The notes under the pieces were generated by a model. The model searched no databases and was not told the DNA's origin. It worked only from the letters and a program-made list of their open reading frames with translations. Of a stretch of DNA of 64,000 bases, positions 38,072 through 63,563 are shown one piece after another. This DNA is from Myxococcota bacterium (GTDB taxonomy: Bacteria; Myxococcota_A; UBA9160; UBA4427): assembly GCA_029243605.1 (NCBI GenBank), contig JAQWRT010000027.1, positions 62,001 to 126,000 on the forward strand. The letters are read 5' to 3'. Made by a program: the position numbers and the translations under genes. Numbering within the stretch: the first letter of the stretch is position 1; the number at the start of each line of letters is the position of its first letter.

Positions 38072-38322
38072 TTCATCTCCTTGGCGAGCACGCGACATTC
38101 TGCGAGTGAGAGTTAAGGACGACAGCCTACGCGATATCGACCACCGCTCCGGCGAATAGCTCGCGTTTCCCAGCCTGACCCGAGTGGGTTTTCGGATTCT
38201 TTTCGGCCGTGACGTCCGCAGATCGGCTCCTGCTCGAGGATTCGGAAGAGCATGCTCTCTTTCCGCGGAACCAATTGCGAGCCGGGAGGAAGCGCGTGGC
38301 TCCGGCAGATCCTCTTGCTCGC

Positions 38323-40707
38323 CTATTCCGAAATCGGACTCAGCGCCTTCGCCATCTCTTTTTTAGCCTCTTCTGTGCGGCCCAGGCGCATCAGGACTTG
38401 GGCCAACTTTCGGTGGGCGGCTGGGCTGGGCTGGATCCGGAGCAGCTGACGATAGTCGGAGACCGCTTCCTCGAATTTTCCCTGCTCGGCCAAGATCGTC
38501 CCGAGATGGTCGTAAGCAGCCGGCTGTTCGGGGTCTGCCTCGATCGCCTCGCGCAAAGATGTGATGGCTTCGTCGACCCGGCCCTGCTGCCCTAGGACGT
38601 AACCGAGCCCGCTATACGCCTGGGCATCTGGGTTTTCCTTCAGGGCTGCGCGGAAGTGGGTCTCGGCGGCTTCGTACTCACCGCTCCGCGTCAGGGCCCC
38701 GGCCACGTTGTAGTGACCGGACGCAGATTGGGGGTCGAGATCCAGCGCTTTACGGAACATCTCGCTCGCTTCTTCGGTCAGCCCCTGGCCCTCAAGTACG
38801 AACCCGAGGTCACTATAGATTGCGGACTGCGGCTCAATTGCGAGGGACTCTCGGTAATGAGCTTCGGCCAACTCGAGCTCGCCAATATCGATGGATGCGA
38901 GGGCCATATTATTGTGGGCCTTCCAGTGTTTCGGATCTATGGTGACCGCCTTCTCCAACGCGACAACCGCTTCCTCGCTCTTTCCCTGCTGGAACAACGC
39001 GAAGCCGAGAGAATTCAACAGTTCTACGTCATCGGGGTGGAGGGCGAGACCTCGCTGGTAGTCCCGAACGGCTCCCGAGTAGTTGCCTGTCCGTTCATTG
39101 GCCATACCCGCCCGAAGAAACGAGTAGGCGTCGAGGAACTCCTCCTTGATCTTCGCGATCGCATCGGCAGGCAAAGGGACGAATTCCGGGATGTTGGCGG
39201 CACGGTCGGGCCCGGTGAAGCGCTCGAGCAGCACCGGAGGGGTGGATCGGCCCTCCGCGTCGATGTGAGTCAGAAAGAGCTGGGTGTAGGGGGTATTGGC
39301 CTTGGAGGAGAAGACCAGCCATCGGCTGTTGGACGACCAGCTATGCCACGAGTTCATCAGGGGCGTATTCGCTCGTAGACGCCGAGCTTCGCCCCCCTCT
39401 GCCGGGATGATATAGAGCTCGCTATCTGGCATCAGCAACATGTAGTTCTCGGCCTTGGTGAACACGATCCACTTGCCGTCCGGAGAGAACTTCGCGAAGA
39501 AATTGCTCATCCCATTATGAGAGGCGCCCCTAACCGGCTCGGCTTTCCCCCCTCGGCCATCGTTGAACGGAACTCGGTAGAGATCGAATTTGAATGGCTC
39601 CTTATCTTCGACAAATTCGGGAACGTCCGTTTCATCCAAGAGGATGGTCGCGGCTTTCTCGATCGAGTCCTTCCGATAGACCTTCGACCGAGCGAATACA
39701 ATTGAGCTTCCGTCGGGACTCCAAGTCGGATTGCTCTGCACGTATTCGGGGTCATCGGCCCCGGGCAATGGCTGGTAAGTACCTGCTTCGGTGTCGTAGA
39801 CGACGAGGATCCCCTTGATCGGAAAGAAGAGCTGAGAAAACGCGATTTCGGGCGTCGCCACGAACACCGCTCGATCCTTGACCGTGCTGATCACGTAGCG
39901 ACCGTCGGGCGAGACCTGTGAGAGGAGCCCAAAAGTCGCCTTGCCGTCGTCTTTTTTGTAATCGCTCCAAGAGATAATCTTCTCGTCGTTCATCACCATC
40001 TGCTGGGAGACGGGAAGGATCGCGTAGCCTCCCTTGTCGTTCCCGTAGTCCACATCGAGACCGAGGACGCCGCCGTTGCCAGAGAAGGAGTGGCAGTTTC
40101 CACAGACCGGAAGGTTCTCGAGGACAATGGGCGGCGCAGTTCTGGAGTCGATCGCCCCGAATCGCCAGCGGATGCGCGAGGGGTCTTGGACGGCCTCGAT
40201 GAACGGGAGCGGCACCTCGCGATAGAAAATTGAATCCCCCACGGGGTCGGTGGAGGTGCGGATCCGGACGCTCGCGGAGGACGCAGTCTGCGCACCCTGA
40301 TCGATGCCCACCACCGCAACCTCTACAGCGTGCGCCTCGCTTCGCCGCTTGATTTCGGCCCAATCCTCTTCTGACGGGCGCCAGTGCGGCTCCGCCACCT
40401 CGAACCGGACCACCTCGCCGGTCGGGCCATAGCGAAGCATGACCAACCACCGTGCAACGCCCTCGGTCGCGTCCTGCCAGAGGAAAGTCGGGGCGACGAT
40501 CTCGGGCGGAAAGAGGGTCTCGTTGTGGGGATAGCTGATTTCAAGGCGCCCAGAGGGTCCGCTCGGAAACCCAGGGGGGGCCGCAGAACCGCAATTCAGC
40601 GCAGTCGCGGCGAAAATCATAGCGGCGAAGAGCACGGGCCAGACCGGGTTGGGCCCCACCCAGGCCCGGGTATCTCCGTCGATTCGAGTTGGACCTTGCC
40701 AATTCAT
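38323..40707 (-). CDS. heme c / PD40 beta-propeller / TPR lipoprotein
   Basis: 794 residues. A hydrophobic signal ends ATALNCG, a lipobox. The N-terminal part (about 50-220) has Ig/beta structure and a single heme motif CGNCH followed by SFSGNGG. The middle (about 230-500) has TolB-like PD40 strands (SQVSPDGRYVISTVKDRAVF, NPTWSPDGSSIVFARSKVYR, KFSPDGKWIVFTKAENYMLL). The C-terminal third has at least six TPR repeats (for example GAVRDYQRGLALHPDDVELL). This combination suggests a periplasmic or outer-membrane scaffold with a redox centre. Function unknown. Divergent from a beta-helix protein. Confidence 0.82.
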   Translation of the reverse strand: MNWQGPTRIDGDTRAWVGPNPVWPVLFAAMIFAATALNCGSAAPPGFPSGPSGRLEISYPHNETLFPPEIVAPTFLWQDATEGVARWLVMLRYGPTGEVVRFEVAEPHWRPSEEDWAEIKRRSEAHAVEVAVVGIDQGAQTASSASVRIRTSTDPVGDSIFYREVPLPFIEAVQDPSRIRWRFGAIDSRTAPPIVLENLPVCGNCHSFSGNGGVLGLDVDYGNDKGGYAILPVSQQMVMNDEKIISWSDYKKDDGKATFGLLSQVSPDGRYVISTVKDRAVFVATPEIAFSQLFFPIKGILVVYDTEAGTYQPLPGADDPEYVQSNPTWSPDGSSIVFARSKVYRKDSIEKAATILLDETDVPEFVEDKEPFKFDLYRVPFNDGRGGKAEPVRGASHNGMSNFFAKFSPDGKWIVFTKAENYMLLMPDSELYIIPAEGGEARRLRANTPLMNSWHSWSSNSRWLVFSSKANTPYTQLFLTHIDAEGRSTPPVLLERFTGPDRAANIPEFVPLPADAIAKIKEEFLDAYSFLRAGMANERTGNYSGAVRDYQRGLALHPDDVELLNSLGFALFQQGKSEEAVVALEKAVTIDPKHWKAHNNMALASIDIGELELAEAHYRESLAIEPQSAIYSDLGFVLEGQGLTEEASEMFRKALDLDPQSASGHYNVAGALTRSGEYEAAETHFRAALKENPDAQAYSGLGYVLGQQGRVDEAITSLREAIEADPEQPAAYDHLGTILAEQGKFEEAVSDYRQLLRIQPSPAAHRKLAQVLMRLGRTEEAKKEMAKALSPISE

Positions 40708-40878
40708 CGCATTTCCGGCCTGTTTTCAAGAATACGGACAGTGGGGCGACCGCCATGCGGCCCTCCCGGCTGGCGCGAAGGGTAGTCATTGCCGGGTTCA
40801 ATGCCAATCGAGGCCCACCCTACAGAAACCCCGGCGATCGCCGAGCGGAAATCTCAGTTATTCGAGTGATCTTCATCG

Positions 40879-40907
40879 TTGACAATCGCGCGCAATCTAC
40901 GTAATAA
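40879..40907 (+). promoter_or_regulatory. sigma-70-type promoter of the beta-helix gene
   Basis: TTGACA (40879-40884), 17-base spacer, TAATAA (40902-40907). Near-consensus; 88 bp before the ATG at 40996. Confidence 0.65.
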
Positions 40908-40995
40908 GGAAAGGAAGTTGCGGGGAAGTTGCGGCCTCTTTGCGGGTCCGCTGCATTTATTCTGGATCAAATGTTTAGTCTGGAGAATTAGCCCA

Positions 40996-42180
40996 ATGAA
41001 TCTGCGCCGGATCTCTACGTTGCTCGGACTCTCCCTTCTGGCGGCTGCGACAGCCGCCGATGCGGCCGTTCATCGCGTTCATCAGGGCGATTCCATCCAG
41101 GCGGCCGTGGACAGCGCCTCGCCCGGGGACACGATCCTCGTTGATCCGGGGACGTACCAAGGAGACCCCTCCAGCCTCTACGGCATTCATATCACCACCC
41201 CGAACCTCCGGTTGATTGGCAAGGTGAGACGCGGCAGGGGCGAAGCCGGCAAGGTTCGCATCCTGGCCAACGGCGACCAGCAGACGGGGATCTTTGTCGC
41301 TCCTGCGGGCTGCGGTTACACCGATTCCAACTGCGCAAGCGAAGATCTCCAGGGCTTTTACGTTCGCGGCTTCACTGTGGAGGGTTTTCCGCAGAACGGG
41401 ATCCAGACCCGCTGGGTGGACGGCTTCAAGTTCGTTCGAAACGAATCCGTCAACAACCTCAACAACGGAATCTATCCGACTCTTTCCGCAAATGGCCTAG
41501 TCAAGAACAATGTCTCCTACGGCTCGCTGGACACAGCGATGTGGGTGGCCGGCTCCGAGAATGTTCGCGTGGTCGGAAACCAACTCTATGGGAGCCCGAT
41601 TGGCTTTGAGATCACTGTTTCGAACGATGTCCAGGTGGAATGGAACTTCATCCACGACAACACCGTCGGTGTTGGCCTCTTCCACCCGAACGCGGCCGGC
41701 AACCCGCCGATGCCCGTCATGGCCAACTGGGTGATCGAGAGAAACTTCATCTTCGACAATAACCTCCCGAATCCGGCGCCTCCCGCCAGCTTTCAGGCCG
41801 GTTTGCCGTCCGGCCTTGGGATCCTGCTCTTGGGGGTCAGCGACAACGTCATCGCAAAGAACTTCATCTCGAGCAACGACTTCGCGGGGATCGGAGTCCT
41901 GGGTTGGTGTACAGCAACCGGCTTGGGCGATCCGCGTCGCAACTGCGAAAACGATTTACCCCGGGCCAACCCCTCCGCGAACAACAATCTGGTCTACAGG
42001 AATTGGTTGACGGGTAACGGTCAGAGCCCGCCTCCGTATCTTCCACTGCCTGGCGTAGACATCCTCTATGTCCAGACTCCTCCCTATGAGCCGGGGACTG
42101 GCAACTGCTTCGAGCAGAATCGCCCGAGCACGTTGACGTTCTACTCCTCTGTCGGGGTGCTGCCCACCGACGGATGCTAG
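40996..42180 (+). CDS. secreted right-handed parallel beta-helix protein
   Basis: 394 residues from ATG 40996 (GGAG nine bases before). Signal peptide RRISTLLGLSLLAAATAADA. Then HQGDSIQAAVDSASPGDTIL with VDPGTYQG, the usual entry of pectate-lyase/NosD-like parallel beta-helices, and short coil repeats rich in Asn (NGIYPTLSANGLVKNNVSYG, GSENVRVVGNQLYG, SDNVIAKNFISSNDFAG). Cys pairs may be disulfides. Such proteins bind or cleave polysaccharides at the cell surface. Catalytic residues are not identifiable. A good promoter lies upstream. Confidence 0.85.
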   Translation: MNLRRISTLLGLSLLAAATAADAAVHRVHQGDSIQAAVDSASPGDTILVDPGTYQGDPSSLYGIHITTPNLRLIGKVRRGRGEAGKVRILANGDQQTGIFVAPAGCGYTDSNCASEDLQGFYVRGFTVEGFPQNGIQTRWVDGFKFVRNESVNNLNNGIYPTLSANGLVKNNVSYGSLDTAMWVAGSENVRVVGNQLYGSPIGFEITVSNDVQVEWNFIHDNTVGVGLFHPNAAGNPPMPVMANWVIERNFIFDNNLPNPAPPASFQAGLPSGLGILLLGVSDNVIAKNFISSNDFAGIGVLGWCTATGLGDPRRNCENDLPRANPSANNNLVYRNWLTGNGQSPPPYLPLPGVDILYVQTPPYEPGTGNCFEQNRPSTLTFYSSVGVLPTDGC

Positions 42181-42350
42181 CCGCCCAGCGCCACTGAATT
42201 TCAAATCCCCGACTCAGCCCCTGGGCTGAGCGGCCACGGCGATGTCGGTGCGCTATCGGTTCAGCTTGGCACGTCATTGGGCGCCTTGGCTTTTGCGTGC
42301 ATGAGTCGCGCGGGAACCGAGAGCCGGAGATGGCCGATTAGAGGATTGAA

Positions 42351-43574
42351 GTGTCTGCCCATCCGATTGCCGAGACCATTCAGACGCATGGCTGCAGGGT
42401 CGTTCTCCGCCGGGTAGAAGGCTGCGAGGCCAGAGAGCTCTTTTTTCTCTGTCAGCCTATCGCCGAAATCGCGGACGTGGGCCCACAGGCCGAGGCGATC
42501 TATCGCGCCATCGTCAGCGTCCTCGACGCTGAAGGAGGGAGTTTCGAGTCGGTCGTCTCCGAGACGGTCTTTCTCCGGAGTCTACGTACGAATCTTGAGC
42601 CGGTGCGCTTGGCGCGCGATCGGGTTCTCGAGACATGCGCAGGGGGCTCTCATCGACCCGCCATGGCTGAGATCGAGCAGTTCCCATTGAACGAGCGAGC
42701 CTGCTTGGAAGTCGCGGTGCAGGCGGTCCTGCCAAACACGGCACCGTTGCGGGTCGACAGCTTCAAGGCCACCACGGCCTGTGGCTGTTCCGAGTGCGCC
42801 CGATTGCACGGCCTGCGGTTCCACCTTGGTGACGAGGCCCGACTCTACGCCAGCGGTCTCTGCGGGCAGGGCAATGACGCTTACGAGCAGACGCAGGGAA
42901 TGTTCAATGTCGCCGAAGGCCTGCTGCAGCAGGCCGGGATGGAGTTCAGCGATGTTGTGCGCACCTGGATTCATCTGCGCGAGATGGAACGCGACTATGG
43001 GGATCTGAACCGGGCGCGGCGCGACTTCTTCGCGATGCGGGGGATCGACCCGGCTCCGGCCAGCACCGGCATCGGGGGTGGGCCGGCTTCTGAGGAGCAC
43101 GATCTCTGCCTTGGTCTATACGCCGTGAAAGCCGCGAACCCACCCCTACGGACCGTGATGACCTCGCCCACACTCAACGAAGCGATGCAGTACGGCGCTG
43201 ACTTCGTCCGCGGAATGAAGATGGTGGAGGCTAATAAGGTCGTGCTTCACGTCTCCGGGACCGCGAGCATCGACGAGGCCGGAATGACAGCCCATCCAGG
43301 AGACTTTGAGGGCCAAGCGGACCGAATGCTCGCGAACATCGCTGCACTGCTCGAGGGGCAAGGCGCCAGCTTCGGAGACATTGTCTCTGCAGTCACGTAC
43401 CTGAAGCGCCCTGCCGACGCAGGGCGCTTGCGGGAGAAGCTCCATGAAGCGGGCTTCCAGGGCTTTCCCAACGCGTTGGTCGCGGCGCAGGTCTGCCGCC
43501 CCGAACTCCTCTGCGAAATCGAGGCAGTAGCCATCCTGCCGAGACAAAAAGACCCGCGACGGGACTCCGAGTAG
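42351..43574 (+). CDS. tandem RidA/YjgF-fold protein, chorismatase-like central segment
   Basis: 407 residues from GTG 42351 (GAGG upstream). At least two YjgF/RidA-type domains: LYASGLCGQGNDAYEQTQGM with VRTWIHLREMERDYGDLNRA and PASTGIGGG in the centre, then HVSGTASIDEAGMTAHPGDF with FGDIVSAVTYLKRP in the C-terminal part. The RTW-PASTGIGG segment recalls FkbO/Hyg5-type chorismatases, while the size and C-terminal RidA domain do not match exactly. The final codons (from about 43551) are supplied by an ~88-bp dispersed repeat, so the native C-terminus may have been replaced. Confidence 0.75.
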   Translation: MSAHPIAETIQTHGCRVVLRRVEGCEARELFFLCQPIAEIADVGPQAEAIYRAIVSVLDAEGGSFESVVSETVFLRSLRTNLEPVRLARDRVLETCAGGSHRPAMAEIEQFPLNERACLEVAVQAVLPNTAPLRVDSFKATTACGCSECARLHGLRFHLGDEARLYASGLCGQGNDAYEQTQGMFNVAEGLLQQAGMEFSDVVRTWIHLREMERDYGDLNRARRDFFAMRGIDPAPASTGIGGGPASEEHDLCLGLYAVKAANPPLRTVMTSPTLNEAMQYGADFVRGMKMVEANKVVLHVSGTASIDEAGMTAHPGDFEGQADRMLANIAALLEGQGASFGDIVSAVTYLKRPADAGRLREKLHEAGFQGFPNALVAAQVCRPELLCEIEAVAILPRQKDPRRDSE

Positions 43575-43639
43575 GGACTCGGCATAACGCCCATACCCCG
43601 ACGTTGTGCGGGAAGACAGCTTGAATGTCCTATCCTCCC
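43551..43639 (-). repeat. dispersed ~88-bp hairpin repeat, copy A
   Basis: Read on the minus strand: GATAGGACATTCAAGCTG, then ACAACGTCGGGGTATGGGCG, then GTTATGCCGAGTCC, ending in the short palindrome GTCCCGTCGCGGGTC followed by TTTTTG, which is terminator-like. It overlaps the last eight codons of the RidA-like gene. Most diverged copy in its right half. Confidence 0.75.
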
Positions 43640-45300: not shown

Positions 45301-45928
45301 TCCAGCGAGCGCCGTGGGGCTGAGCCATCTTCGGCCGCTGTAGGCATTGCGATGCACAACGCCGCGAGCAGACGTCACCGATCTGTGTGGTCCGCCCGCA
45401 GCCTCAGAGGTCGGTATCCATTTCCAACGCATCGCCGACTCCGACAGCTTCTTTCCTCAGGGCGGAATCTTCTTTCCCCCTTTCTCCGGTAGGGAGCGCG
45501 GACCTTAAGGCCGTTGATTTCGTCGGGGCCAGGTGGTATTCCGCGGGCGCGACGGGCTGGGGTGCCACGGCATCCACCTCCACAACGGTGAGAGCCTCGC
45601 AGCGGGAGGTAGGCGAGTCAGCCCCTCGGGGGATAAGGCGTTCGAACTGAGTTCTGGCACCACGTCCGAGTATGGGCGTTATGTTAAATCCATTAAGGCA
45701 GCTCCGTGACGGGGCCGGACTCCAAAAATAATTCCTCCACATCGCATCAACCCGACTTAACGCTACACCCCGAATCAAGCCCGTCCTGGAGAAAAAGAGC
45801 CAAGGCCGCCCAACCCAAGAAGAACGGTCCTCGCCAGGTTCGACGCTCTCCGCGCGCAAACAGGAAGAACAACTCCAGCCCCTGAAAGACGGACACTCCG
45901 CACGACTCGTGCCCTTGGGAGCTCTTTA
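45301..45928. other. gene-free stretch containing repeat copy B
   Basis: 628 bases with no convincing gene apart from the repeat at 45628-45715. Open frames here are low in hydrophobic pattern and look like chance. Confidence 0.4.
45628..45715 (+). repeat. dispersed ~88-bp hairpin repeat, copy B
   Basis: Plus strand: GGGGGATAAGGCGTTCGAAC, then CACGTCCGAGTATGGGCG, then TTATGTTAAATCC, ending GCTCCGTGACGGGGC. The only copy in this orientation; it is inverted relative to A across the Rieske oxygenase gene. Confidence 0.75.
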
Positions 45929-49772: not shown

Positions 49773-49807
49773 CACCCATCGAACCGGAGAAAAACGGGAG
49801 CATTCGC

Positions 49808-52640: not shown

Positions 52641-52727
52641 GCCCGTCACGGGGCTCCCCCTGGGTATTTAACATAACGCCCATACCCGGACGTTGTGTCA
52701 GAATGCAGCTTGAATGTCCTATCCCCC
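52641..52727 (-). repeat. dispersed ~88-bp hairpin repeat, copy C
   Basis: Minus strand: GGGGGATAGGACATTCAAGC, then ACACAACGTCCGGGTATGGG, then CGTTATGTTAAATACC, ending GAGCCCCGTGACGGGC. It begins exactly where the CDF transporter reading frame loses similarity. Same orientation as copy D, 10 kb away. Confidence 0.8.
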
Positions 52728-53050
52728 ACAACGGCGAGCGCCACGGCGCTCGAGAAGCCTCCCAGCGAACCCACCTTGCCCGTACCGAAGCTGTAGCGTG
52801 GATCCTCTGCATGGCTCCGCATGTAGAAATACGCGAAGGCGGTCACACTCAATGCCGCCGCATGCGTCCCCATATGCCAGCCGTCCGCCAACAACGCCAT
52901 CGACCCGAAAGCCCAGCCTGCGGCGATCTCGACGACCATCATCACAACAGTGAGGCCGATCACCCAATGCGTACGCGACTCGCCGCGAGGGACCTCCAGG
53001 GTCCCGAAGGTGTGCCTGTGTGTCCGGCGATCCATCTGTCTTTCATGCAT
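52728..53050 (-). pseudogene. CDF-family cation efflux transporter, truncated at repeat copy C
   Basis: Only the N-terminal ~105 residues remain. A His-containing N-terminus (RRTHRHTFG) is followed by two membrane helices, HWVIGLTVVMMVVEIAAGWA and MALLADGWHMGTHAAALSVT; the zinc-site motif DGWHMGTH is intact, as is YSFGTGKVGSLGGFSSAVAL typical of CDF/ZitB proteins. The coding similarity stops after ALAVV, where the dispersed repeat begins. Intact CDF proteins are ~300 residues with six helices. The product cannot be functional. Confidence 0.8.
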
Positions 53051-53137
53051 TCTTGACTATCCTCATGCAAACGGGGTGACCCTTCCCACACGCTTTGTGT
53101 GGAAACACAGGCCGATCGCATCACCGGTCAATCAGAT

Positions 53138-54061
53138 CTACTCACCCCGAAAATGCTCTTCCTGGGGAGAGATGCGTCCGCTCTTCCGCAATGAATCGAG
53201 AGCAGCACCTCCGCAAACAACCTGACGCAGGTACTCGTCCCGGAGTTGGCCGTCCTGATACAGGCGGTACCAACGGCGCCAATGCCATCCCATGCTCTTT
53301 GGCAACAGGGGATTCCGTTCATAGGCCTGGCCCCCCTGGACTACCTTGGCCTCAAACTGCCGATAACTGCGAATCGGATAATGGTGGATTTCGATATGAT
53401 GGGCGGGACCCCTTTGCCAGAATCGTCCGCCGCCCACCTTATGGTTTCCTTGTTCGATCGTCCCCAGCATCGTCGCCCGCGCCATCACTTTGGCATACGG
53501 CTTCATGAAGATCCAATCGACATTCAGTTCCTCTCGGAGATCTGCCAGATTTTCCAGGTATTCATTTCCTGGCCGCTCTAGATCTTCGTACTGACGAATC
53601 TGGCCAAAACCTTCCGGGTCTTCAGTCAAGGCCACCGCGGGATCCACATGGTGCGGCATCATGGTCCGTGAAGGACAAAACAGAACGCTCCGCCTTTCCA
53701 GCCCGATACTCTCCTTGAGGTCACCCCGGCGAGGACACCAGAACTCGTCTGCATCTCCCAGAATCAACCAGTCCGCATTAGGACGTCCGCACGCTTCCTG
53801 CAACAGCCTCGTCATCCATTCGGCCTGGGAATAATCCTGGGCAGGTTCATGAATGAGTTTCAAAACCCCCATCTCCTGAAACTTCTCGAGGATCTCGACC
53901 GTTCCATCCTCCGAGCCATTGTCCATGGCAATCACGAAGTCTACACCTGACCTGAGATGGAACTCAATATTGTGACCAATGATGTCGGCTTCATTCTTGA
54001 CGAGAATGAGCAAGCAGACAGACTCAGGCCTTCCATTCTGGAACATACGAGGCCTATCCAT
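53138..54061 (-). CDS. glycosyltransferase, GT2-like (Glyco_tranf_2_4 type)
   Basis: 307 residues from ATG 54061 with GGAGAG upstream. GT-A fold start CLLILVKNEADIIGHNIEFH with DFVIAMDNGSEDGTVEILE and the metal-binding LGDADEFW (DxD-like). The rest is helical and His/Arg-rich (HHIEIHHYPIRSYRQFEAKV). Such enzymes add sugars to surface glycans or proteins. It overlaps the DUF707 gene upstream by 8 bp. Part of the 53-62.7 kb glycan cluster. Confidence 0.85.
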   Translation of the reverse strand: MDRPRMFQNGRPESVCLLILVKNEADIIGHNIEFHLRSGVDFVIAMDNGSEDGTVEILEKFQEMGVLKLIHEPAQDYSQAEWMTRLLQEACGRPNADWLILGDADEFWCPRRGDLKESIGLERRSVLFCPSRTMMPHHVDPAVALTEDPEGFGQIRQYEDLERPGNEYLENLADLREELNVDWIFMKPYAKVMARATMLGTIEQGNHKVGGGRFWQRGPAHHIEIHHYPIRSYRQFEAKVVQGGQAYERNPLLPKSMGWHWRRWYRLYQDGQLRDEYLRQVVCGGAALDSLRKSGRISPQEEHFRGE

Positions 54062-54842
54062 CTCGGCTCTCCACACTCTTCCGACGAAGCCATGTTCGCT
54101 CGATACGGTAGAAAAACTTCAAAGCCCATTGTCCGAGTCGCCAGCCAAGGGGTCCGCCCAGAAAGCGTTCATCGAGTTCACGTAAGTCATTTTCAGCCAG
54201 TATCCGGTGTTTTTCTTCGATCGGCTTCAAGCCACTGGAAAGTACCCAGCTACTGGAGGTCACTGGAGCCGCGTGACCTACAACGACCCCATCCACGACA
54301 CTCAGCGGACTTGCATATTCCCGCCAGAGCAGGTCCAGCCCCCACCCACTTTCACTCATTCCAAATGTGCCACGACACTCTTCCAACGTCGACCGAGAAA
54401 AAACGGGCATCATGATTTCAACCAGGGGTACGGCTCGAGACGTGCCCTCCATCTGTTTTTTTTTAAAAAGGAAGAAGTACGTACCGACGCTCGCGGGACT
54501 CAGTGCGGCTTGAAAGAGGCCAAGATCATCTCTCTGTCCAGTCGTGAACAACTCATTGATTTGAGCAGTAGAAACAACGATGTCGTCATCGAAGAAAGCG
54601 TAATACTGATATTCTTTTCCGATCGCATGGAGATTGCGATCAATGGCTGGCCATTTGTGTGAAGGACCGGCGAATTGATACTCCGCTTCCTTCGGGCCAG
54701 CATATACATCGCCCGAATAATCATGAATCGCGACATCGAACATCCGGTCGGCACCAAAGTAATCGCCAACCAACCTCTTACCGAAGGAAGGGCAATACAA
54801 AAGAAACGGTCGATGTGGCTGGTTTGTCCCGCCGGGGCTCAC
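54054..54842 (-). CDS. DUF707-like protein, glycan cluster
   Basis: 262 residues from GTG 54842 (AGGAGA upstream). GT-A-like features: PFLLYCPSFGKRLVGDYFGA, DVAIHDYSGD, YQYYAFFDDDIVVS with a DDD metal motif, and ECRGTFGMSESGWGLDLLWR. This matches DUF707, a putative glycosyltransferase family. Overlaps the following GT2-like gene, so they are translationally coupled. Confidence 0.75.
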   Translation of the reverse strand: MSPGGTNQPHRPFLLYCPSFGKRLVGDYFGADRMFDVAIHDYSGDVYAGPKEAEYQFAGPSHKWPAIDRNLHAIGKEYQYYAFFDDDIVVSTAQINELFTTGQRDDLGLFQAALSPASVGTYFFLFKKKQMEGTSRAVPLVEIMMPVFSRSTLEECRGTFGMSESGWGLDLLWREYASPLSVVDGVVVGHAAPVTSSSWVLSSGLKPIEEKHRILAENDLRELDERFLGGPLGWRLGQWALKFFYRIERTWLRRKSVESRDG

Positions 54843-54851
54843 CAATATCTC

Positions 54852-55300
54852 CTACGCTATGAACTGACGGTGCGTTGGGATCGCGGGAAATTGCGACACC
54901 AACCATGCCTCGCACACCTCGTCGGGATCATAGCCAAAACAGCGGATTGCCTCATCCAGCCGGTCCACTTCCTGAAATAGTGGGCACACACCGGTCCACC
55001 ATTTGAGTTCGGCGAGCTCAAACCCGGCTTCATTCACCCTGGCCACACCCATCTCACCACCCTTCTGCCCGTATCCGACGAACGGAAAAATACCCGGTCG
55101 CGCCCCCGATTCTCGAAAACATCGAGGCGAGCCGGGACACGGTCGACTGCACCGCGATCTCCAGGCTTGGATATAGGGATGGATTGCCGTTCTCAGCGAG
55201 CCCTGCCCCGGGCTCAAGACCCACGCGCAGTAAAATCCGGCCATCATTCAGCCAAAGAGCACATGAATGGGCATACTCTTCAAAACCGTTCTTGAGCCTA
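54852..55300 (-). pseudogene. unrecognised protein, frameshifted within a T-run
   Basis: Two frames together make one plausible protein. The first reads EYAHSCALWLNDGRILLRVG and NPSLYPSLEIAVQSTVSRLA, to IGGATG. After an extra T in TATTTTTCC near 55095, the second continues GIFPFVGYGQKGGEMGVARV, NEAGFELAELKWWTGVCPLF and ends AIPTHRQFIA. Removing one T restores a single reading frame. The start is unclear. No family recognised. Adjacent to DUF707. Confidence 0.5.
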
Positions 55301-55357
55301 CTACCAGAAGAGTCGGTCCCGCGCCGAACAACTGGCCAACACCAGGAAACCCTCTCA

Positions 55358-56155
55358 ATGCACTGTTTCGTATGCAATGGCAAGCTAAAGCCCTTCTTCG
55401 AGAAGGAATTCAACGGACAATGCGAATTGACATGTGTCGAGTACGTCCGATGCGAATCTTGCCATCTCGCTTTGTCAAAAACCCATTTCGAAATGTCGGA
55501 CCGTGCGTGGGAAACCCTCAATCGTACATATCACGAACAGTACCAAGGCAAGGACTCCTTCGACGATGACCCACGATGGATGTCACGACTACAAGCGCAG
55601 TCTGAAACAATCAGCCGGCTCGCAAAGGCTGACGTCTTGAGCCAGTCCCTTCCCTGGGTGGATTATGCCTGCGGCGACGGGAAGCTTGCGGACATGCTCG
55701 CTCAATCGGACATCAGAGTTTCTAAATTTGAGCGCTTCATGCCTCCACATGGCTCCGGGTATGTCACCGCCGAGGAGATGCTCAAAGAATACGATGTCGT
55801 CATCAACACGTCCGTCTTCGAGCACCTCCGAGATCTGGAAACCCTTGATGAAATAGCAGGCCTGGTCGGAAAAAACGGAGCCTTGGCTCTTCACGTCATG
55901 GTCAAGGAAGAGATTCCTGCAGACCCGACATGGTCCTACCTCCTTCCAGTACATTGCGTCTTCTACTCGAATCGCAGTATGCAGGTCTTGTTTGACAGGT
56001 GGAATTTTGATTCCTGCATCTATCATGTGCCATCTCGAATGTGGTTCATGTTCCGGCAGGACCACCCGGGACTCCGAGAATTCGCAGAGAGAGAAGCCTC
56101 CGCCGGTTCTGAAGACTTCCATTTCAAGGAAGGCTTTGTGGACTACTGGAAGTAG
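55358..56155 (+). CDS. class I SAM-dependent methyltransferase with N-terminal zinc-finger-like motif
   Basis: 265 residues from ATG 55358 (AGGAAA eight bases upstream). HCFVCNGKLKPFF and VRCESCHLAL give two CxxC pairs at the N-terminus, as in the sugar-methyltransferase type with a zinc-binding head. The Rossmann part includes LPWVDYACGDGKLADMLAQS (SAM-binding), YDVVINTSVFEHLRDLETLD and LVGKNGALALHVMV. Probably methylates a sugar or glycan residue. Sits divergent to its neighbours inside the glycan cluster. Confidence 0.8.
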   Translation: MHCFVCNGKLKPFFEKEFNGQCELTCVEYVRCESCHLALSKTHFEMSDRAWETLNRTYHEQYQGKDSFDDDPRWMSRLQAQSETISRLAKADVLSQSLPWVDYACGDGKLADMLAQSDIRVSKFERFMPPHGSGYVTAEEMLKEYDVVINTSVFEHLRDLETLDEIAGLVGKNGALALHVMVKEEIPADPTWSYLLPVHCVFYSNRSMQVLFDRWNFDSCIYHVPSRMWFMFRQDHPGLREFAEREASAGSEDFHFKEGFVDYWK

Positions 56156-56275
56156 CCTCGTAGCCTGGCGCCTTGAGCCACGATCGCTTTCAAAGAACCT
56201 GGACTCGACGATGAAACCGGAAAGAAACAGGCCCACTGAAGAACAGGATCTTCGCTCACAGCAAACACTGCAAAT

Positions 56276-57628
56276 TCAGGTCTCGCGTATCGCCTCTTGC
56301 AGCTCTCTCATGATGCATGCGCAATCGTACTCGTCAAAATCCGGGTTGACTGGCAGACAGAGCACTTCCTTGGAGAGTTGAGTCGACACAGGCGTCGACT
56401 CAAAAGAGTCTTCCATATCGGAACAGATTTTCGACTCTCTCGCAGTCGGGTAGTAGTACGTTCGTGAAAAAACCCCTCGCCTACGAAGCCTTTGATTCAG
56501 CATGTCCCGATCCAAGCCATCCGATGGTGTCACGATAATCGGGAAGTAGCTGTAGTTCAGGGTCTGCTCTGACGTATCGTACAGAGACGGCAAATAGGAA
56601 ATCTGCGGGTGATCCAACTCACGCAGGGTCTCCAGATAGGACTCCACGACTCGTTTCCGCTTTTCAAGAGCGATCTCGACCTGCCCAAGATTGGCCAACC
56701 CCAGGGCACATCGCAATTCATCCATCTTTCCGTTCAATCCATCAAACTCAATCTTGTCTTCTCCAAGTATTCCAAAATTGATAAAGAGCTTGCAGCGATC
56801 GTATAGGGCCTCATCGCGGCAAATAATGGCACCGCCTTCGGCTGTATTGAAGACCTTGGTCGCATGAAAGCTCAATACAGAAGCGTCACCATATTGAGTG
56901 ATCGAGAGTCCGTTTTTCCGGACACCGAAGCAGGCTGCAGCATCAAAGATCAAGGGAAGGTCGTGCTCTTGTGCGAGAGCGCTCAACTCTTCCACCGCGG
57001 CCGGAAAACCGTACGCATGGACCGCCAAGATGCCGGCCGTTCGCTCTGTGATGGCCCGGGCTGCCGCATCAGGATCCATGCCGAAATTATCCCGCCTGAC
57101 GTCCACAAACCTTGGACTCACGTTCCTCGCATGGATCAGCGCATGATACGTCGCTGGGAATGTATACGGAACCGTCAACATCTCTCCGTGTAGATCCATC
57201 GCGTTCAGAAGGGTCGTCAAACCAAATGTGGCATTCGTGACCGGCAGGACGAATTCAGCATCCATGATCTCCCTGAGCGACTCGCTGAACTCTTCATGCA
57301 TACCGCCGAAGTTGGTCAGCCATCGATTGTCGAAGATTTCCTTGACCCGTGAGGTAAAGGACTCGAGATCCGGTACGGAAGGTTGATTCATCACGTATTG
57401 CTTCTGGAGGAATTCCCGACGGAACTCCGTGATCGAGAAGACTTTATTGATCTTCCCGAAACCCACGGAGAGAAGAAGTTCTCGGCCCTCCTCCGACTTT
57501 TGGATATCCTGGATCCGGCCCTTTCCATACGCCGGATGCTTGACGCCGTGACCCAGCACACGAGCGAGTTCTTCGTCTCTCCCGACAGCGGCCTCTGCAA
57601 TCAACTTTTCAAAATCTACTTCACGCAT
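56276..57628 (-). CDS. DegT/DnrJ/EryC1/StrS aminotransferase with extra N-terminal tudor-like domain
   Basis: 450 residues from ATG 57628. The C-terminal ~370 residues are a sugar aminotransferase: RWLTNFGGMHEEFSESLREI, VTNATFGLTTLLNAM, PLIFDAAACFGVR and the PLP Lys in LSFHATKVFNTAEGGAI. The first ~80 residues are unusual: LGHGVKHPAYGKGRIQDIQK and LLLSVGFGKINKVFSITEFR, which resembles the SH3/tudor-like domain of UvrD/PcrA or DUF3553 (V-HP-FG-G-I...V-F). Normal family length is ~370-400. It probably makes an amino sugar for the surface glycan. Confidence 0.85.
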   Translation of the reverse strand: MREVDFEKLIAEAAVGRDEELARVLGHGVKHPAYGKGRIQDIQKSEEGRELLLSVGFGKINKVFSITEFRREFLQKQYVMNQPSVPDLESFTSRVKEIFDNRWLTNFGGMHEEFSESLREIMDAEFVLPVTNATFGLTTLLNAMDLHGEMLTVPYTFPATYHALIHARNVSPRFVDVRRDNFGMDPDAAARAITERTAGILAVHAYGFPAAVEELSALAQEHDLPLIFDAAACFGVRKNGLSITQYGDASVLSFHATKVFNTAEGGAIICRDEALYDRCKLFINFGILGEDKIEFDGLNGKMDELRCALGLANLGQVEIALEKRKRVVESYLETLRELDHPQISYLPSLYDTSEQTLNYSYFPIIVTPSDGLDRDMLNQRLRRRGVFSRTYYYPTARESKICSDMEDSFESTPVSTQLSKEVLCLPVNPDFDEYDCACIMRELQEAIRET

Positions 57629-57807
57629 TGATCTCTTCCGTTCAATCGAAGAACCGACTGGCACGAGGGTGACTGCAAAATCTCGGAAATCGGTAGGGGC
57701 TCTTCTCTTCTTCGCTGCCCTCAGTCAGGTATGGCGATGGCCCACCCCCTGCAGAAGAATCCTTCACATCAAGCCGAAACCCGTCTCCAGACAATTCTCC
57801 TTGAAAC

Positions 57808-59382
57808 TCATGCACGCCCTCGCCCCCCAAAGGCGACCCGCCGAATGAAGACTCCATAGATGTAGACACGACTGCGAAGAGCAGAGAGGGAAAACGCTCG
57901 GCCCATCAATGCCGTTCCTTTGAGGAACTTCATGACTTCACGATAGCCTTTGTGCTGTGTCATCGCCGCAACCCTCAAGTCATCGTCCTGGAAGTCTGGC
58001 GAGGAATGCGGCAATGGGCGAACCGAATGAGACAAGCCCTTGTTCTCCTCATACAATTCGCGAACGACAGACTGGAGACGGGACTCCACTTCCTGCTGCT
58101 CTTTCTTGAGAATTGCGACGAGCGACCTGCGTTTTCGAGAGTCATGGATCAATTCCTCGAGCCTCGCGAAGTAGTCGTCCGAATCAATTGGGTTCAGATC
58201 AAGATCGGATTCGAATATATTCCCGCTATTCAAGAGTCCCCTATGCGAACCATGGAAGAGAAGTGGCGCAGCTTCACCGTATGTGATGGCTTCCACCAGA
58301 CCTCCCATCGATGGGTATGGATAGGCATCCAGGTAGATATCGGCAGCCTGGTAATAGACAAGCGGATCAGGAACGATGCCAAGGCAATGGACTCGTCGGG
58401 TTTCAAGCGGGAGATATCGCTGAGCGAGTTCATGTTCCTCGCCGATTCCAATCAGGAAGAGATGTACTTGTGGATAGCGCCTGACGATCTGCCCAGCCGT
58501 CGAGAAAAAGTTCTGTTCGCCATACGAAGTAAAGACCGTACTGCCCAGGACGATGCTGAGCAGACACAAATCGCCGGAAGGAACGTCCAGACTGGACTTC
58601 GCGCTCTCTTTATCAACGGGATCGTGGAGTTGATGAAGATACCGGGAGTACCGGATAGGCAGGAAGAAGGTGCGGGCGGCAAAGCGCCGAGACCTGGACA
58701 TTTCACACATATACGTGGCATGACTGATGATCACGTCACTCACAGAAGGGCCGAGCCAGAAAAAGAAATGCGTATGATTGTCAAAGAGGACCGGTGGATT
58801 GTCCGTCGTCCCAAAGGCGAGAACAGGAACCGGGTCGTTGGGGTGCGGAAAGAGGATCGCGAGATTGACGAATCGAGCGATCGCCCTGAGGGTCGAGGCC
58901 TTCTCCATGGTAGAGCCACATTGGCTCAAATTCAGGATTTCCAGAGCCCCGTCTCGTCGCATGACCTCGAAGGCATCGGGCAAGGATTCATCCTGCTGGG
59001 TGATCACCAGGACAAGACGGAATCCGCTGTATTCCTCAATGATCTTCTCGACAACCTTGGCGTGCCCCCCCGCCTCATATAGATACGAAGCCACCAGGAG
59101 AATTGCTTTCTCGGGATTTGAACCTTCGACCTGATCCAGTTCAGACAGAATCTCGATATTCGCGATCTCGGGATCCATGTCTTCTGCCATGGACAAAAGA
59201 AGGTTTTCAAGCCGACCGTCAGCGAAGAAACCGGGATGATTACTCCACGCAAAAGAAGCCAGATCACGGATACGACACAGAAGTTCTTCCGGATTCCTGC
59301 GCAGCCTTTCGGGAAGAACCCTCGTCTCAAGCAGATATGTGTAGATGCTGGAGTTGATCTTGATCTGCGTTTCAGCATCCAT
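57808..59382 (-). CDS. large GT-B-type glycosyltransferase
   Basis: 524 residues from ATG 59382; ATG 59412 would add ten residues and overlap the upstream acetyltransferase by 19 bp. N-terminal part LLVASYLYEAGGHAKVVEKI with an acceptor-domain pattern; C-terminal donor domain LSIVLGSTVFTSYGEQNFFS, HLFLIGIGEEHELAQRYLPL, RRVHCLGIVPDPLVYYQAAD and DAYPYPSMGGLVEAITYGEA with LLFHG. The last segment has the usual E-x7-E-like sugar-nucleotide region in altered form. The C-terminus ends Arg-rich. Belongs to the glycan cluster. Confidence 0.8.
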   Translation of the reverse strand: MDAETQIKINSSIYTYLLETRVLPERLRRNPEELLCRIRDLASFAWSNHPGFFADGRLENLLLSMAEDMDPEIANIEILSELDQVEGSNPEKAILLVASYLYEAGGHAKVVEKIIEEYSGFRLVLVITQQDESLPDAFEVMRRDGALEILNLSQCGSTMEKASTLRAIARFVNLAILFPHPNDPVPVLAFGTTDNPPVLFDNHTHFFFWLGPSVSDVIISHATYMCEMSRSRRFAARTFFLPIRYSRYLHQLHDPVDKESAKSSLDVPSGDLCLLSIVLGSTVFTSYGEQNFFSTAGQIVRRYPQVHLFLIGIGEEHELAQRYLPLETRRVHCLGIVPDPLVYYQAADIYLDAYPYPSMGGLVEAITYGEAAPLLFHGSHRGLLNSGNIFESDLDLNPIDSDDYFARLEELIHDSRKRRSLVAILKKEQQEVESRLQSVVRELYEENKGLSHSVRPLPHSSPDFQDDDLRVAAMTQHKGYREVMKFLKGTALMGRAFSLSALRSRVYIYGVFIRRVAFGGRGRA

Positions 59383-59393
59383 ACGAGATGATC

Positions 59394-60002
59394 TTATTGG
59401 GAAACGCGACATTCGTGTGGAATGTACGCCCCGTCTGCGTCATACAACTCTTCCCTCAGCTTCTCTTCCAACTCAAGGATTCGCTGCCTGGGGCGGTCTC
59501 GGATGGGGCGTGCGGGCGTACCGGCATACACGGTCCACGGTTCACAATCCTCTAGAATGAGCGACTTCGCGCCCACCGACACACCTTCTCCGATCGTGAT
59601 ACCGGGCATCACAGCGACGTCCGTTCCGAGAATGGCATGCCGTTCGATCCGAACGAAAGAACGTTCCGCCTGGCGATAGGGGGCAGGCACTGCGGGGTTC
59701 GTCAAGCTCCCGCCCAGAAAATCCTCGGTGCCGGTCGCAATACGGCAGCCGGCAGAGCAACCGGCAAAGTCACCCATGAAGAATTCCCCCCCACCCGTGA
59801 TCGAAGTAAAAGAAGCGAGGTGAACAAAGCTCCCGATCCGGGTGCGCGTACCACCCACCAGGAATGTAAAGTCATCGATGATGACCGAGTCCCCAATCGA
59901 GATCGCTTCCGGGAAGGCAATTCGGGCCGATGGCCAGATCTGTACATCCAGTCCGACACTCGCGAAACCCAGTTCGTACGCCTGATTACTCAAATCGGAC
60001 AT
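59394..60002 (-). CDS. hexapeptide-repeat acetyltransferase (WcaF/LbetaH type)
   Basis: 202 residues. Left-handed beta-helix hexapeptide repeats run through the protein (FPEAISIGDSVIIDDFTFLV, IGSFVHLASFTSITGGGEFF, RHAILGTDVAVMPGITIGEG and VSVGAKSLI), ending in VYAGTPARPIRDR, the typical closing coil of maltose/sugar O-acetyltransferases. Probably O-acetylates a glycan sugar or precursor. Overlaps or abuts the large glycosyltransferase downstream. Confidence 0.88.
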   Translation of the reverse strand: MSDLSNQAYELGFASVGLDVQIWPSARIAFPEAISIGDSVIIDDFTFLVGGTRTRIGSFVHLASFTSITGGGEFFMGDFAGCSAGCRIATGTEDFLGGSLTNPAVPAPYRQAERSFVRIERHAILGTDVAVMPGITIGEGVSVGAKSLILEDCEPWTVYAGTPARPIRDRPRQRILELEEKLREELYDADGAYIPHECRVSQ

Positions 60003-60669
60003 GCTCCAGATGCCTTGATTCAGAAACTAGCGAGAACCGGCTGAGAGATCGGGGCTCTGCGAAATTTATCCAGGCAGACGCCGATTCCTGATCCATGATC
60101 CGCCCAGAACCTCCGTCGGGACCACTCACTCTATCCCCCTTCCCTCCACCTGGCTCCGCGCAGCGCTGTCCGGACCCGGGATCCCTTGGAGCGACGGCGC
60201 CTGGTCCAAATGCCGGGTCGAAACCTCTTCAATCGCCCCCTGTTGCCCCGCGGGTAAAGGCAGGCCTCCCGTATGAGGCCGTGCTCAAGCGCGAAAACCA
60301 CGCCCCTTCGCGGTCTGAAACACAAGCCCAAGGCCGCAGCCGTTCGAGAGCCGAACCCACCTCCCCTTCCTGAACCGTCGGCTCCGCAGCAGCCGGCCTC
60401 ACCATGGTTCTGTGGCGCCGCACCGTTCATCGCGAAACGGAAACTCCGTCCCCCTGCCGGCTTACTTCGGGAAAGGCGGATGTCGTCCACCCCCAGCCTT
60501 CAAATTCCTGGCCCATGGCTCCACCCCGAAACTCATGCAGGGGTGCAAAACAGATCGAGTCATTTATGATTCTTCTCGTCTGAATCCAAGGCTCTGATCC
60601 AGAAGGATTGGCCGCTTTGCCGTAATCCTGCTCACCGGATCAAATGGTCCCAAAAGCCCAGATTTCCTC
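60003..60669. other. gene-free stretch
   Basis: 667 bases between divergent glycan genes. Rich in G/C with Pro/Arg-rich chance frames. No RNA gene, repeat or clear terminator seen. It should hold promoters for both directions. Confidence 0.4.
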
Positions 60670-61398
60670 GTGAGGGTACTCCGAATGCTGGTGACCGTGG
60701 CCAATCACAACCACAACCAACAGGCCATACGCCTACGGGATGCGTTCGCGGCACAAAGTCAGGCTCTGCTGATCGACAGCGGCTCTCGGCTATCCACGCA
60801 GGAAGAAGAGCGAGTCGACATCGGCTTACCCAATGTCTACTACACCGGCCTGGTCAATGAAGCCTGGGCGCAGACCAAAGGGATGGGCCCAGACGAGATC
60901 CTCCTCTTCGTATCGTCTGACGTAGAACTCGACGATCCTTCCGACCTGGTTCTTCGTGCAACATGCTGCTTTGAGGACCCGAGGATAGGCGTCTACGCTC
61001 CTTCCATGAAGGTCAGTGACCATCTGCAAATGCGAACGGGCCCGAGTGCGAATCTCCGCGTGGTCGTTTTCGTAGAGGGCGTGATCTTTGCAGTCCGAAA
61101 GAAGCTGATCGACCTTCTGTGCCCCATCGACCCATCTTTGAATCGACTTGGATGGGCTCTCGATGTCCACCTGGGGTATCTGACCCTGAAGTCGGGGCTC
61201 CGCTCCGTCGTCGATGACGGGATCCAGATTCGGCATGCTCCCGGGCGAGGGTATCAGGATGAGGAGGCCAGAGAGCAAGCAGAAAAGTGGTTGACTGCTC
61301 AAGGCCCGAATGCTTTCCGATTCTGGAAACTCTCTACCCAGCACAAATACCAGACAAAGATCGGGTTCTGGAAAACGCGCGCGCTCTGCCGGATATGA
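60670..61398 (+). CDS. GT2-like glycosyltransferase
   Basis: 242 residues from GTG 60670. RMLVTVANHNHNQQAIRLRD, then IDSGSR, DEILLFVSSDVELDDPSDLV with the D-V-E-L-D acidic motif in the DxD position, and VFVEGVIFAVRKKLIDLLCP, LNRLGWALDVHLGYLTLKSG. This matches the GT-A fold of GT2 enzymes but is short. It overlaps the next gene by 4 bp (ATGA). Part of the glycan cluster. Confidence 0.7.
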   Translation: MRVLRMLVTVANHNHNQQAIRLRDAFAAQSQALLIDSGSRLSTQEEERVDIGLPNVYYTGLVNEAWAQTKGMGPDEILLFVSSDVELDDPSDLVLRATCCFEDPRIGVYAPSMKVSDHLQMRTGPSANLRVVVFVEGVIFAVRKKLIDLLCPIDPSLNRLGWALDVHLGYLTLKSGLRSVVDDGIQIRHAPGRGYQDEEAREQAEKWLTAQGPNAFRFWKLSTQHKYQTKIGFWKTRALCRI

Positions 61399-62321
61399 CC
61401 ATCGCTTCAGCACCAAATCTACTTCAATCTGCAATGAAAGATTCCATGCCTCGCCGCTACTTCATGTCCTATGCCACGGCCAATGATGACCCATCATATG
61501 CGAGGGATTTCTCCAATTTCAAGAGCTTGAGACGCCGGAACCCCGGACCGGCCACCGTCGAGGTCTATATCGCCGTCAGTGAAGTAACGCCAAGAACCCC
61601 GAGAGACAACCAGAGACTTAGACAACTGCGTAGATTGATCGAATCGTCCCGCTCATTCAAGGTGAAGTCGATCCGATTCAAAAGCAACGAAGGCCGCGAC
61701 CTGAGCTCGATAAAACAAAACCTTCTTGATATTGCCCGGGTGGGATCTCCAGACGACTTCGCTTTTTTCGCGAATCGAAGCGCCTTCGGTCCGCGAACCA
61801 AACGCTGGTACGATCAATTCATTTCACAAATCGAGAAGTTTCCGGAAAGCGGCCTGTGCGGAAACACGATCAACCGCCCATGCCCGGACGAATCAGATCA
61901 CACTTACAAATTACACGTCCAGACATATGCCTTTCTCACTCGACTCAAACATTTCGAAGAGTTCATGACAAGCATGCCCGGAGAGAATGCAAGTACCCGG
62001 GAAGAGGCGATACAGGACGGAGAGCTCGAACTCTCCCGTCGAATCCTCGCCAAGGGACTTGCCCTGACGTCACTCGCATGGCCGGAGCATCGATTCACGA
62101 GCGAAGGCGAAGACATCGACCCGGAACTGCCGTGCGGCAATATGACCATGACGCCCGGACTCGGGCATATTTTCGCAAAACTCCCGTACAGTCATTGGCA
62201 CGACACACAAAAAGCGAGGCGTGTTCGCTGGAACTCGATACTTACGACAGCTCGATTCGGCAAGAATCGACTGGTGAGATACCTTCGAAAAGAAGGCGCC
62301 GACGAAGTTTCATGGCCCTGA
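61395..62321 (+). CDS. putative glycan-biosynthesis protein, RgpF-like segment
   Basis: 308 residues from the ATG overlapping the previous stop. RYFMSYATANDDPSYARDFS, VEVYIAVSEVTPRTPRDNQR, NEGRDLSSIKQNLLDI, FAFFANRSAFGPRTKRWYDQ and SGLCGNTINRP. The order 'N-x-GRD ... N-S-x-GP ... W ... G-x-x-I' recalls RgpF-type rhamnan-synthesis glycosyltransferases. That likeness is weak. Coupled to the GT2-like gene. Function otherwise unknown. Confidence 0.55.
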   Translation: MTIASAPNLLQSAMKDSMPRRYFMSYATANDDPSYARDFSNFKSLRRRNPGPATVEVYIAVSEVTPRTPRDNQRLRQLRRLIESSRSFKVKSIRFKSNEGRDLSSIKQNLLDIARVGSPDDFAFFANRSAFGPRTKRWYDQFISQIEKFPESGLCGNTINRPCPDESDHTYKLHVQTYAFLTRLKHFEEFMTSMPGENASTREEAIQDGELELSRRILAKGLALTSLAWPEHRFTSEGEDIDPELPCGNMTMTPGLGHIFAKLPYSHWHDTQKARRVRWNSILTTARFGKNRLVRYLRKEGADEVSWP

Positions 62322-62417
62322 ACCCTAAGCTGATGACCCCGTCGCGAAGACAGGGACCCAAGCCGCGAACTGCCGCTTTCAGCCCGGATACGCTGCAATG
62401 ACGAGGGGCAATCGGAA

Positions 62418-62686
62418 ATGAATCCATCAAACGATCTTGATCTGGATCCGAAGAAGACATCTGAACGGGTGCTTATCCTCCCGTCATGGTATCCGACAAT
62501 CGAAACACCACTGCACGGCTCTTTTGTCCGCGAGCAGGCCTTGATGATGGAGGCTGGCTTTGACACCAAGGTTCTTTTCGCCAGAGCGGATACGGTTTCG
62601 CGGAGTCGAGCGCTTGAAAACAAGGTCCGAAGAGCGATGGGACGCTCGGCACCCTCTCGTGACATGACACCCATGATGAAGACACC
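62418..62686 (+). pseudogene. GT4 glycosyltransferase, truncated at repeat copy D
   Basis: Only the N-terminal ~90 residues remain. ERVLILPSWYPTIETPLHGS with FVREQALMMEAGFDTKVLFA is the standard opening of a GT4 glycosyltransferase (P-S-W-Y-P-x...G-x-F-x-x-E-Q). After the KVRRAMGRSAPS segment the sequence runs into the dispersed repeat and stops. Intact members have ~370 residues, so this cannot be functional. Confidence 0.8.
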
Positions 62687-62773
62687 GCCCCGCCACGGGG
62701 GCTCCCCTAGGGATTTAACATAACGCCCATACCCGGACGTTGTGCCAGAACCCAGCTTGTATGTCCTATCCCC
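62687..62773 (-). repeat. dispersed ~88-bp hairpin repeat, copy D
   Basis: Minus strand: GGGGATAGGACATACAAGCT, then GGCACAACGTCCGGGTATGG, then GCGTTATGTTAAATCC, ending GGGGAGCCCCCGTGGCGGGG. Truncates a GT4 gene. Direct repeat of copy C. Confidence 0.8.
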
Positions 62774-62870: not shown

Positions 62871-63563
62871 ATGCCGATGCGTTTGCACCCGCTTGTAGTC
62901 CGTCTACTGCTCGCGACGATCATTTCCCTAGTTGCGACCGCAGCCAATGCGACGCTGATCAGCCGCGCCGGTGGCGCAGCCTACTACGACGACCTGTTGG
63001 ACATCACCTGGCTGGCGGACGCGAACTACGCAGAGCATAACTACCAGCCCCAGGTGCCACCCCACGGCTACGGTGGGTCGATGACTTACCAGTCCGACCC
63101 AACGCGTTACACGGTGGAGGGCTTCATCGAATGGCTGAACGATCAGGGGGGTCACCTCGGCGCCACCGGTTGGCGACTGCCGACGGTTACTCTCCCCGAT
63201 CCAACTTGCGGTGATAGCGCGTCCGATGCTTGGGGATATGGCTGCACGGGCAGTGAGATGGGGAGCCTATTCTATACGACTCTCGGCAATGTCCAAGGAC
63301 CGGTGACCAATTCAGGCCCTTTCACTGACATCCAGTCGAGTATTTATTGGACGTCAACGTACTACCAGGGCAACCCCTTGAATACCGCCCTGTACGGTTT
63401 TCATTGGGGGAGCGGTATCCAAAATCAGTTCGGTGGGCCGGGTTTTGGTAGTCAGTTTGCATGGGCCGTGCTCGACGGAGACATCGCGCTCATCCCCGAA
63501 CCCTCTACCGCTCTCCTCCTTGGCCTCGGACTCGTCGGCATGGCTGCTAGGAGGCGGGTTTGA
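62871..63563 (+). CDS. DUF1566 PEP-CTERM protein
   Basis: 230 residues. Signal peptide LHPLVVRLLLATIISLVATA. DUF1566 pattern: YYDDLLDITWLADANYAEHN, FIEWLNDQGGHLGATGWRLP with T, then SSIYWTSTYYQG and QFAWAVLDGD. The C-terminus is PEPSTALLLGLGLVGMAARR, the PEP-CTERM export signal. Likely a surface protein sorted by an exosortase. Its stop overlaps the next start by one base. Confidence 0.88.
   Translation: MPMRLHPLVVRLLLATIISLVATAANATLISRAGGAAYYDDLLDITWLADANYAEHNYQPQVPPHGYGGSMTYQSDPTRYTVEGFIEWLNDQGGHLGATGWRLPTVTLPDPTCGDSASDAWGYGCTGSEMGSLFYTTLGNVQGPVTNSGPFTDIQSSIYWTSTYYQGNPLNTALYGFHWGSGIQNQFGGPGFGSQFAWAVLDGDIALIPEPSTALLLGLGLVGMAARRRV

Follow-up and report, generated by a model that had tools for sequence, protein, structure and literature searches.

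Gene modules bounded by sites for the Xer recombinases have been described, as far as we found, in Acinetobacter, both as dif (pdif) modules and as chromosomal dif-module islands (PMC12907356, PMC13141974, PMC6449649, PMC11705084). The chromosomal islands were reported in 2026 (PMC12907356, PMC13141974), and the mechanistic work shows that dif-module sites carry an ATAA-centre-TTAT motif around the centre (PMC11705084). Here, we analysed a 64,000-nt stretch of a Myxococcota genome (the window), which forms the right half of contig C7 (62001-126000 of 126687) in a 4.44-Mb draft of 97 contigs that is 93% complete. The window holds copies A to D of an 85-nt element with a dif-like core, and copies C and D enclose a 10-kb block of glycan genes. 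We favour, at a probability of roughly 0.55, the reading that this element copies itself and that Xer exchange between its copies shuffles gene modules.

The arrangement resembles the Acinetobacter dif modules in several ways. Gene modules lie in linear arrays separated by dif-like Xer sites, they have no recombinase of their own and presumably depend on the host XerC and XerD, and modules are common to several genomes. The same module content also appears in different contexts, as seen at 49 of 134 homology ends and in three different continuations at copy A (both below). The differences are equally clear. The phylum is Myxococcota, represented by metagenome-assembled genomes (MAGs); the site lies inside a conserved, sharp-ended 85-nt element, whereas the Acinetobacter sites are bare 28-bp sequences; and one centre is shared by the copies, in contrast to the varied centres of Acinetobacter. 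Neighbouring copies mostly have the same orientation (183 of 258 pairs, against 75 opposite) rather than the inverse one, more than 75 sites occur in this genome with no plasmid link found, and the cargo consists of metabolic and glycan genes instead of resistance or toxin-antitoxin genes. Because the XerC-side ATAA motif is missing from the element and the inverse orientation does not prevail, we suggest that the system works like dif modules and do not claim that it belongs to them. No comparable system in Myxococcota was found in searches of an open-access library, and the containment of a lineage-specific dif-like site within such an element appears to be new.

Copies of the element are joints between unrelated DNA

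Cross-genome joints were scored from shared segments that were at least 85% identical and at least 120 bp long. Of 134 ends of such segments, 49 lie directly at a copy of the element, compared with about 1% expected by chance (p = 5e-60). Among 168 ends of homology next to a copy, similarity picks up again beyond only one copy (G003C30 6309), which adjoins a scaffold gap with a run of Ns and was set aside. Where copies are nested in other copies, the host copy keeps one half only (the left half in 11 cases and the right half in 14) and never both. The copies are thus joints between unrelated pieces of DNA.

Copy A (approximately 43553..43637, + strand), a diverged copy with a degenerate XerD arm, marks the edge of an island and illustrates such a joint. 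The chromosomal flank to its left (38315..43544) has counterparts of 4-5 kb and about 90% identity in two congeners, and the homology stops at copy A, ending 9 nt before it. All three genomes carry the element at this locus and then continue without mutual similarity detectable by blastn. An earlier note on the window had proposed that the repeats mark recombination joints, and this locus, where congeners share the flank and diverge at the same element, bears it out. A similar picture emerges within the genome: contigs C32 (1-141) and C33 (1-141), L019 and L020, begin with an identical 56-nt flank and a full element and then continue into different neighbours, which reflects duplication of the flank or the coexistence of two arrangements in the population.

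Short captured fragments point in the same direction. Positions 49728-49919 of the window (192 bp), which span the end of a large oxidoreductase/GcvT-like gene and the gap that follows, are 99.5% identical to positions 4319-4510 of L082, a contig from another genus, in which the segment sits exactly between two inverted elements; this is a recent capture across genera. In G001, a fragment of about 407 bp is captured between copies. It appears, then, that gene blocks open to exchange make up large islands in this genome, the glycan cluster being one such block.

The element carries a dif-like core

The consensus core of the element reads ACGTCCGAGTA-TGGGCG-TTATGTTAAAT. It was compared with the host dif, which is present at one site per genome in all five members of the genus and consists of a XerC arm (ACGTCCGATAA in two members and common across the order, AGGTCCGATAA in this genome), the centre GATAGA and the XerD arm TTATGTTAAAT. 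The XerD arm of the element is identical to that of the host dif in this genus (11/11), and its XerC arm ACGTCCGAGTA matches ACGTCCGATAA at 9 of 11 positions, with exactly the 6-nt spacing of dif. This total of 20/22 arm matches at dif spacing was not approached by the controls: the best of 20,000 shuffles reached 16 and the best of about 6,100 genomic 85-mers reached 14. The genome contains the sequence TTATGTTAAAT 50 times, almost always within elements, compared with 0 for the control; in the window it is also found in copy B (approximately 45629..45713, - strand), at 45679-45689. The XerD arm and the centre are among the best conserved parts of the element, with TGGGCG ranking second of 78 six-nt windows. 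Intact xerD-like and xerC-like genes are present in their usual surroundings, the former next to a glnD-like gene and the latter next to a trmFO-like gene. XerCD is inferred to act on the element.

The XerD arm of the element also follows the host dif in several relatives. In at least 48 relatives, the XerD arm of the host dif takes the forms TTATGTTAAAT, TTATGTCAAAT and TTATGACAACT (TTA, TCA and ACA types). Element arms match the local dif type in the genus and in G013 and G019, and in G038, G042 and G008, which represent other families, the XerD arm of the element mostly has CA, as in the local host dif, and not TA. High element counts coincide with a TTA-type dif in several genomes, with G028 as an exception, and G016 has a TTA-type dif and no elements.

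Integrative mobile elements exploiting Xer (IMEX), such as CTXphi, TLCphi and the gonococcal genomic island, rely on the Xer recombinases of the host and attach at a dif-like site, whose XerC arm is poor in some cases. The 85-nt element would share with them such a site for the host enzymes. Unlike IMEX, which integrate at the chromosomal dif, its copies are dispersed and their centre differs from that of the host dif (TGGGCG versus GATAGA), so that the matching centre typical of IMEX is lacking; the cargo is neither phage nor conjugative island. No element was seen in the stretch read around the host dif.

The element forms a large and patchy family

A profile search of the 322 kb of contigs with elements detected 76 copies in this genome, and genome-wide BLAST gave at least 48 matches to the repeat, far above chance. 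Related Myxococcota MAGs contain hundreds of copies. The element is widespread in MAGs filed as Myxococcota by record title and patchy among relatives, being present in 25 of 61, some of which have dozens of copies while their neighbours have zero. Contigs from two MAGs filed elsewhere, L046 (JAPYTD01, 'Planctomycetota') and L056 (DUDC01, 'Planctomycetaceae'), carry it as well, through either a binning error or transfer between phyla. An origin in phages or plasmids was rejected, as no element was found in IMG/VR viral contigs by exact pattern or in plasmid and phage records. The window has no Rfam match.

Alignment of the copies delimits an element of 85 nt; in 257 unique copies, its ends are sharp and the flanks unrelated. 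It is non-coding, folds as an imperfect hairpin and is conserved over its whole length. In islands, there is one copy per 0.5-4 kb, mostly in one orientation, and the intervals between neighbouring copies mostly contain one to three genes, in both orientations. These include genes for a methyltransferase, amidase, sulfatase, MFS and MATE transporters, radical SAM protein and aminotransferase. Only 1 of 57 copies has coding sequence on both flanks, compared with 31% of random points on the same contigs. Over 80 nt, ten copies do not differ from one another and yet have different flanks (except those on C32 and C33), and the element has therefore been copied recently.

Hybrid elements, in which two left or two right arms surround a normal inner 16 nt, were also observed, either left-left (C94:8411-8493; G001 C39:8680-8763) or right-right (G001 C121:3113-3196; L084:5586-5669; others). 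Such copies are as expected from exchange inside the palindromic centre, and hairpin-driven conversion would give them likewise.

A proposed model of Xer exchange between copies

In the model that we favour, an 85-nt non-coding mobile element would carry the Xer site of its lineage, composed of a XerC arm, a 6-nt centre and a XerD arm. Copies would first insert more or less at random, those that survive lying mostly between genes, and this insertion probably preceded exchange. Any pair of copies could then be recombined by the host XerC and XerD, since a single centre is common to all of them, and the real dif would be spared because its centre differs from that of the element. Each exchange would swap the DNA beside a copy and thereby part the two flanks of the original insertion, and every stretch between two copies would become an exchangeable module. 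If this is true, the machinery of chromosome dimers is able to work as a general means of shuffling genes, and the logic known from Acinetobacter would extend to uncultured Myxococcota with far more sites, a single centre and ordinary metabolic or surface-glycan cargo. It would also make two questions testable, namely by what means a dif-like site multiplies and what keeps exchange among many such sites from disturbing the real dif.

Several observations weigh against this model. Homology ends without an element make up 85 of the 134, and at 39 of the 49 joints with a copy the element is present in just one of the two genomes, which means that Xer exchange alone is insufficient and that an extra insertion or copying step is needed. 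The ATAA bordering the centre on the XerC side is replaced by AGTA or AGCC, with the TTAT side present, and in G023 and G028 the arm of the element is unlike that of the host dif. Where a flank is shared, the adjoining half of the element shows no clear excess of conservation over the opposite half, and the point of exchange could thus not be placed at the centre. Linkage declines throughout the element, and half-elements show no sharp break at the centre.

A wider proposal is that these genomes contain a chromosome-wide, integrase-free cassette system, in which an 85-nt Xer-site element seeds itself at random positions and so makes modules of whatever genes flank it, the essential Xer enzymes of the host shuffle the cassettes and species exchange them, making it the Xer counterpart of a superintegron. 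We put this forward tentatively, as less likely than not. Like the Vibrio superintegron and other sedentary chromosomal integrons, the islands are large cassette arrays between near-identical, hairpin-forming sites; superintegron sites are recombined by a tyrosine recombinase, and the likeness in this respect depends on the presumed action of Xer. They differ in their larger cassettes, in lacking an integron integrase and an attC consensus, and in containing genes that face both ways.

Alternative explanations

The most serious alternative, which we consider improbable without dismissing it, is a repeat resembling miniature inverted-repeat transposable elements (MITEs) that is moved by some transposase and builds up in islands, with ordinary RecA recombination between copies doing the shuffling and the likeness to dif being a leftover or serving another role. 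The ten copies that agree over 80 nt and have different flanks indicate copying as this explanation expects, the decay of linkage is what gene conversion would give, and the core lacks ATAA on its XerC side; moreover, repeats of 85 nt that are 90-98% identical can sustain some homologous recombination. Like MITEs and enterobacterial repetitive intergenic consensus (ERIC) sequences, the element is short, non-coding, imperfectly palindromic, multi-copy and mostly intergenic. However, its ends are not complementary, in contrast to the terminal inverted repeats of MITEs, and the 257 unique copies show no target-site duplication of 2-10 nt above shuffles. No autonomous element with split ends was found among 69 partial copies, no recurrent transposase-like gene family was seen in the islands, and the dif-arm match, which no shuffle reached, and the conservation of the XerD arm and centre also count against it. 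Plain MITE insertion was rejected because target duplications are absent and similarity between genomes does not pick up again beyond the copies, which, unlike MITE and ERIC copies, stand at joints of unrelated DNA and not inside continuous DNA. Repetitive extragenic palindromic sequences and bacterial interspersed mosaic elements (REP/BIME, mobilised by RAYT) were rejected as well, as the Y1 transposase (PF01797) is absent from the 93%-complete genome.

One-ended or replicative transposition of the IS26 or Helitron/IS91 kind, by a putative enzyme and with no role for Xer, would account for the short captured fragments in L082 and G001, for the joints with an element in one genome only and for precise element ends beside random breakpoints. 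It leaves the dif-like core unexplained, and the genome has neither an HUH Y1 transposase (no separate search was made for the Y2/IS91 class or for IS6) nor a transposase that recurs in the islands; we regard it as quite unlikely. An integron-like system, in which the element would be an attC-type site for an integron integrase, is suggested by the cassette-like arrays of one to three genes between like-oriented, hairpin-forming sites. It is very unlikely, and an attC/IntI identity was rejected, because no integron integrase scores above the family cut-off in the genome (best 71 bits versus 265), the best matches to that profile being XerC- and XerD-like proteins, and the element lacks the attC core-site signatures RYYYAAC and GTTRRRY; conservation also extends over the whole element and not only its ends, and the genes point in both directions. 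Least credible is an artefact of assembly or binning that joined contigs of several organisms at repeats. The data are MAGs, several contig ends fall at elements and one scaffold gap lies at an element, and the earlier note had allowed for misassembly. Nevertheless, the same element and the same type of joint recur in MAGs from several studies and assemblers, and the repeat, at 85 nt, does not reach the length of the k-mer of 141 that contig overlaps imply for the assembly, which makes misassembly unlikely; the copies are also diverged and evolving.

The glycan block between copies C and D

Copies C (52642..52726) and D (62689..62773) are both on the + strand and share 88% identity. Their dif-like cores are on the - strand: in copy C (52666..52693), the XerC arm ACGTCCGGGTA occupies 52683-52693, the centre TGGGCG 52677-52682 and the XerD arm TTATGTTAAAT 52666-52676; in copy D (62713..62740), these parts lie at 62730-62740, 62724-62729 and 62713-62723. 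The enclosed block (52727..62688) contains no internal elements and is a putative single module. As the earlier note had described, it encodes a glycosyltransferase (GT2, PF13704), an aminotransferase (DegT-type), a methyltransferase (Methyltransf_23) and an acetyltransferase (WcaF-like, hexapeptide); it also has a weak GT1/GT4 match.

The genes at both edges are cut. A CDF cation efflux gene (52727..53050, - strand) retains its N-terminal 108 aa, matching positions 5-79 of the 198 in PF01545 (E = 7e-14), and the element starts at the next base, in agreement with the earlier note. At the other edge, copy D cuts a 90-aa open reading frame (62418..62688, + strand), an N-terminal fragment that had been taken for a GT4 gene. 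The truncation stands, and the GT4 label is unconfirmed because the fragment has no match in Pfam, NCBIfam or PDB sequences. The genome has just one further CDF gene, which is separate and intact, and the single congener relative of the D-edge fragment (60% identical) is itself broken. In the proposed model, both remnants would be the ends of pieces broken where copies landed.

Apart from traces of 199 bp and 86 bp, the block has no counterpart in four congeners. Its specificity to this genome and the cut genes at its edges fit the notion of a swappable cassette. Copies C and D are, however, not a bracket dedicated to it; they are two of the 76 copies in 322 kb and simply neighbours in a genome-wide family. 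The glycan block would thus be one such module among many, and it may move as one unit of 10 kb.

Immediately to the right of copy D lies a gene for a PEP-CTERM secreted protein (62871-63563), and several short matches to other genomes come from similar stretches close to the end of the contig. A weak relic of the element (score 17.5) is present outside the island, at 29501-29569.

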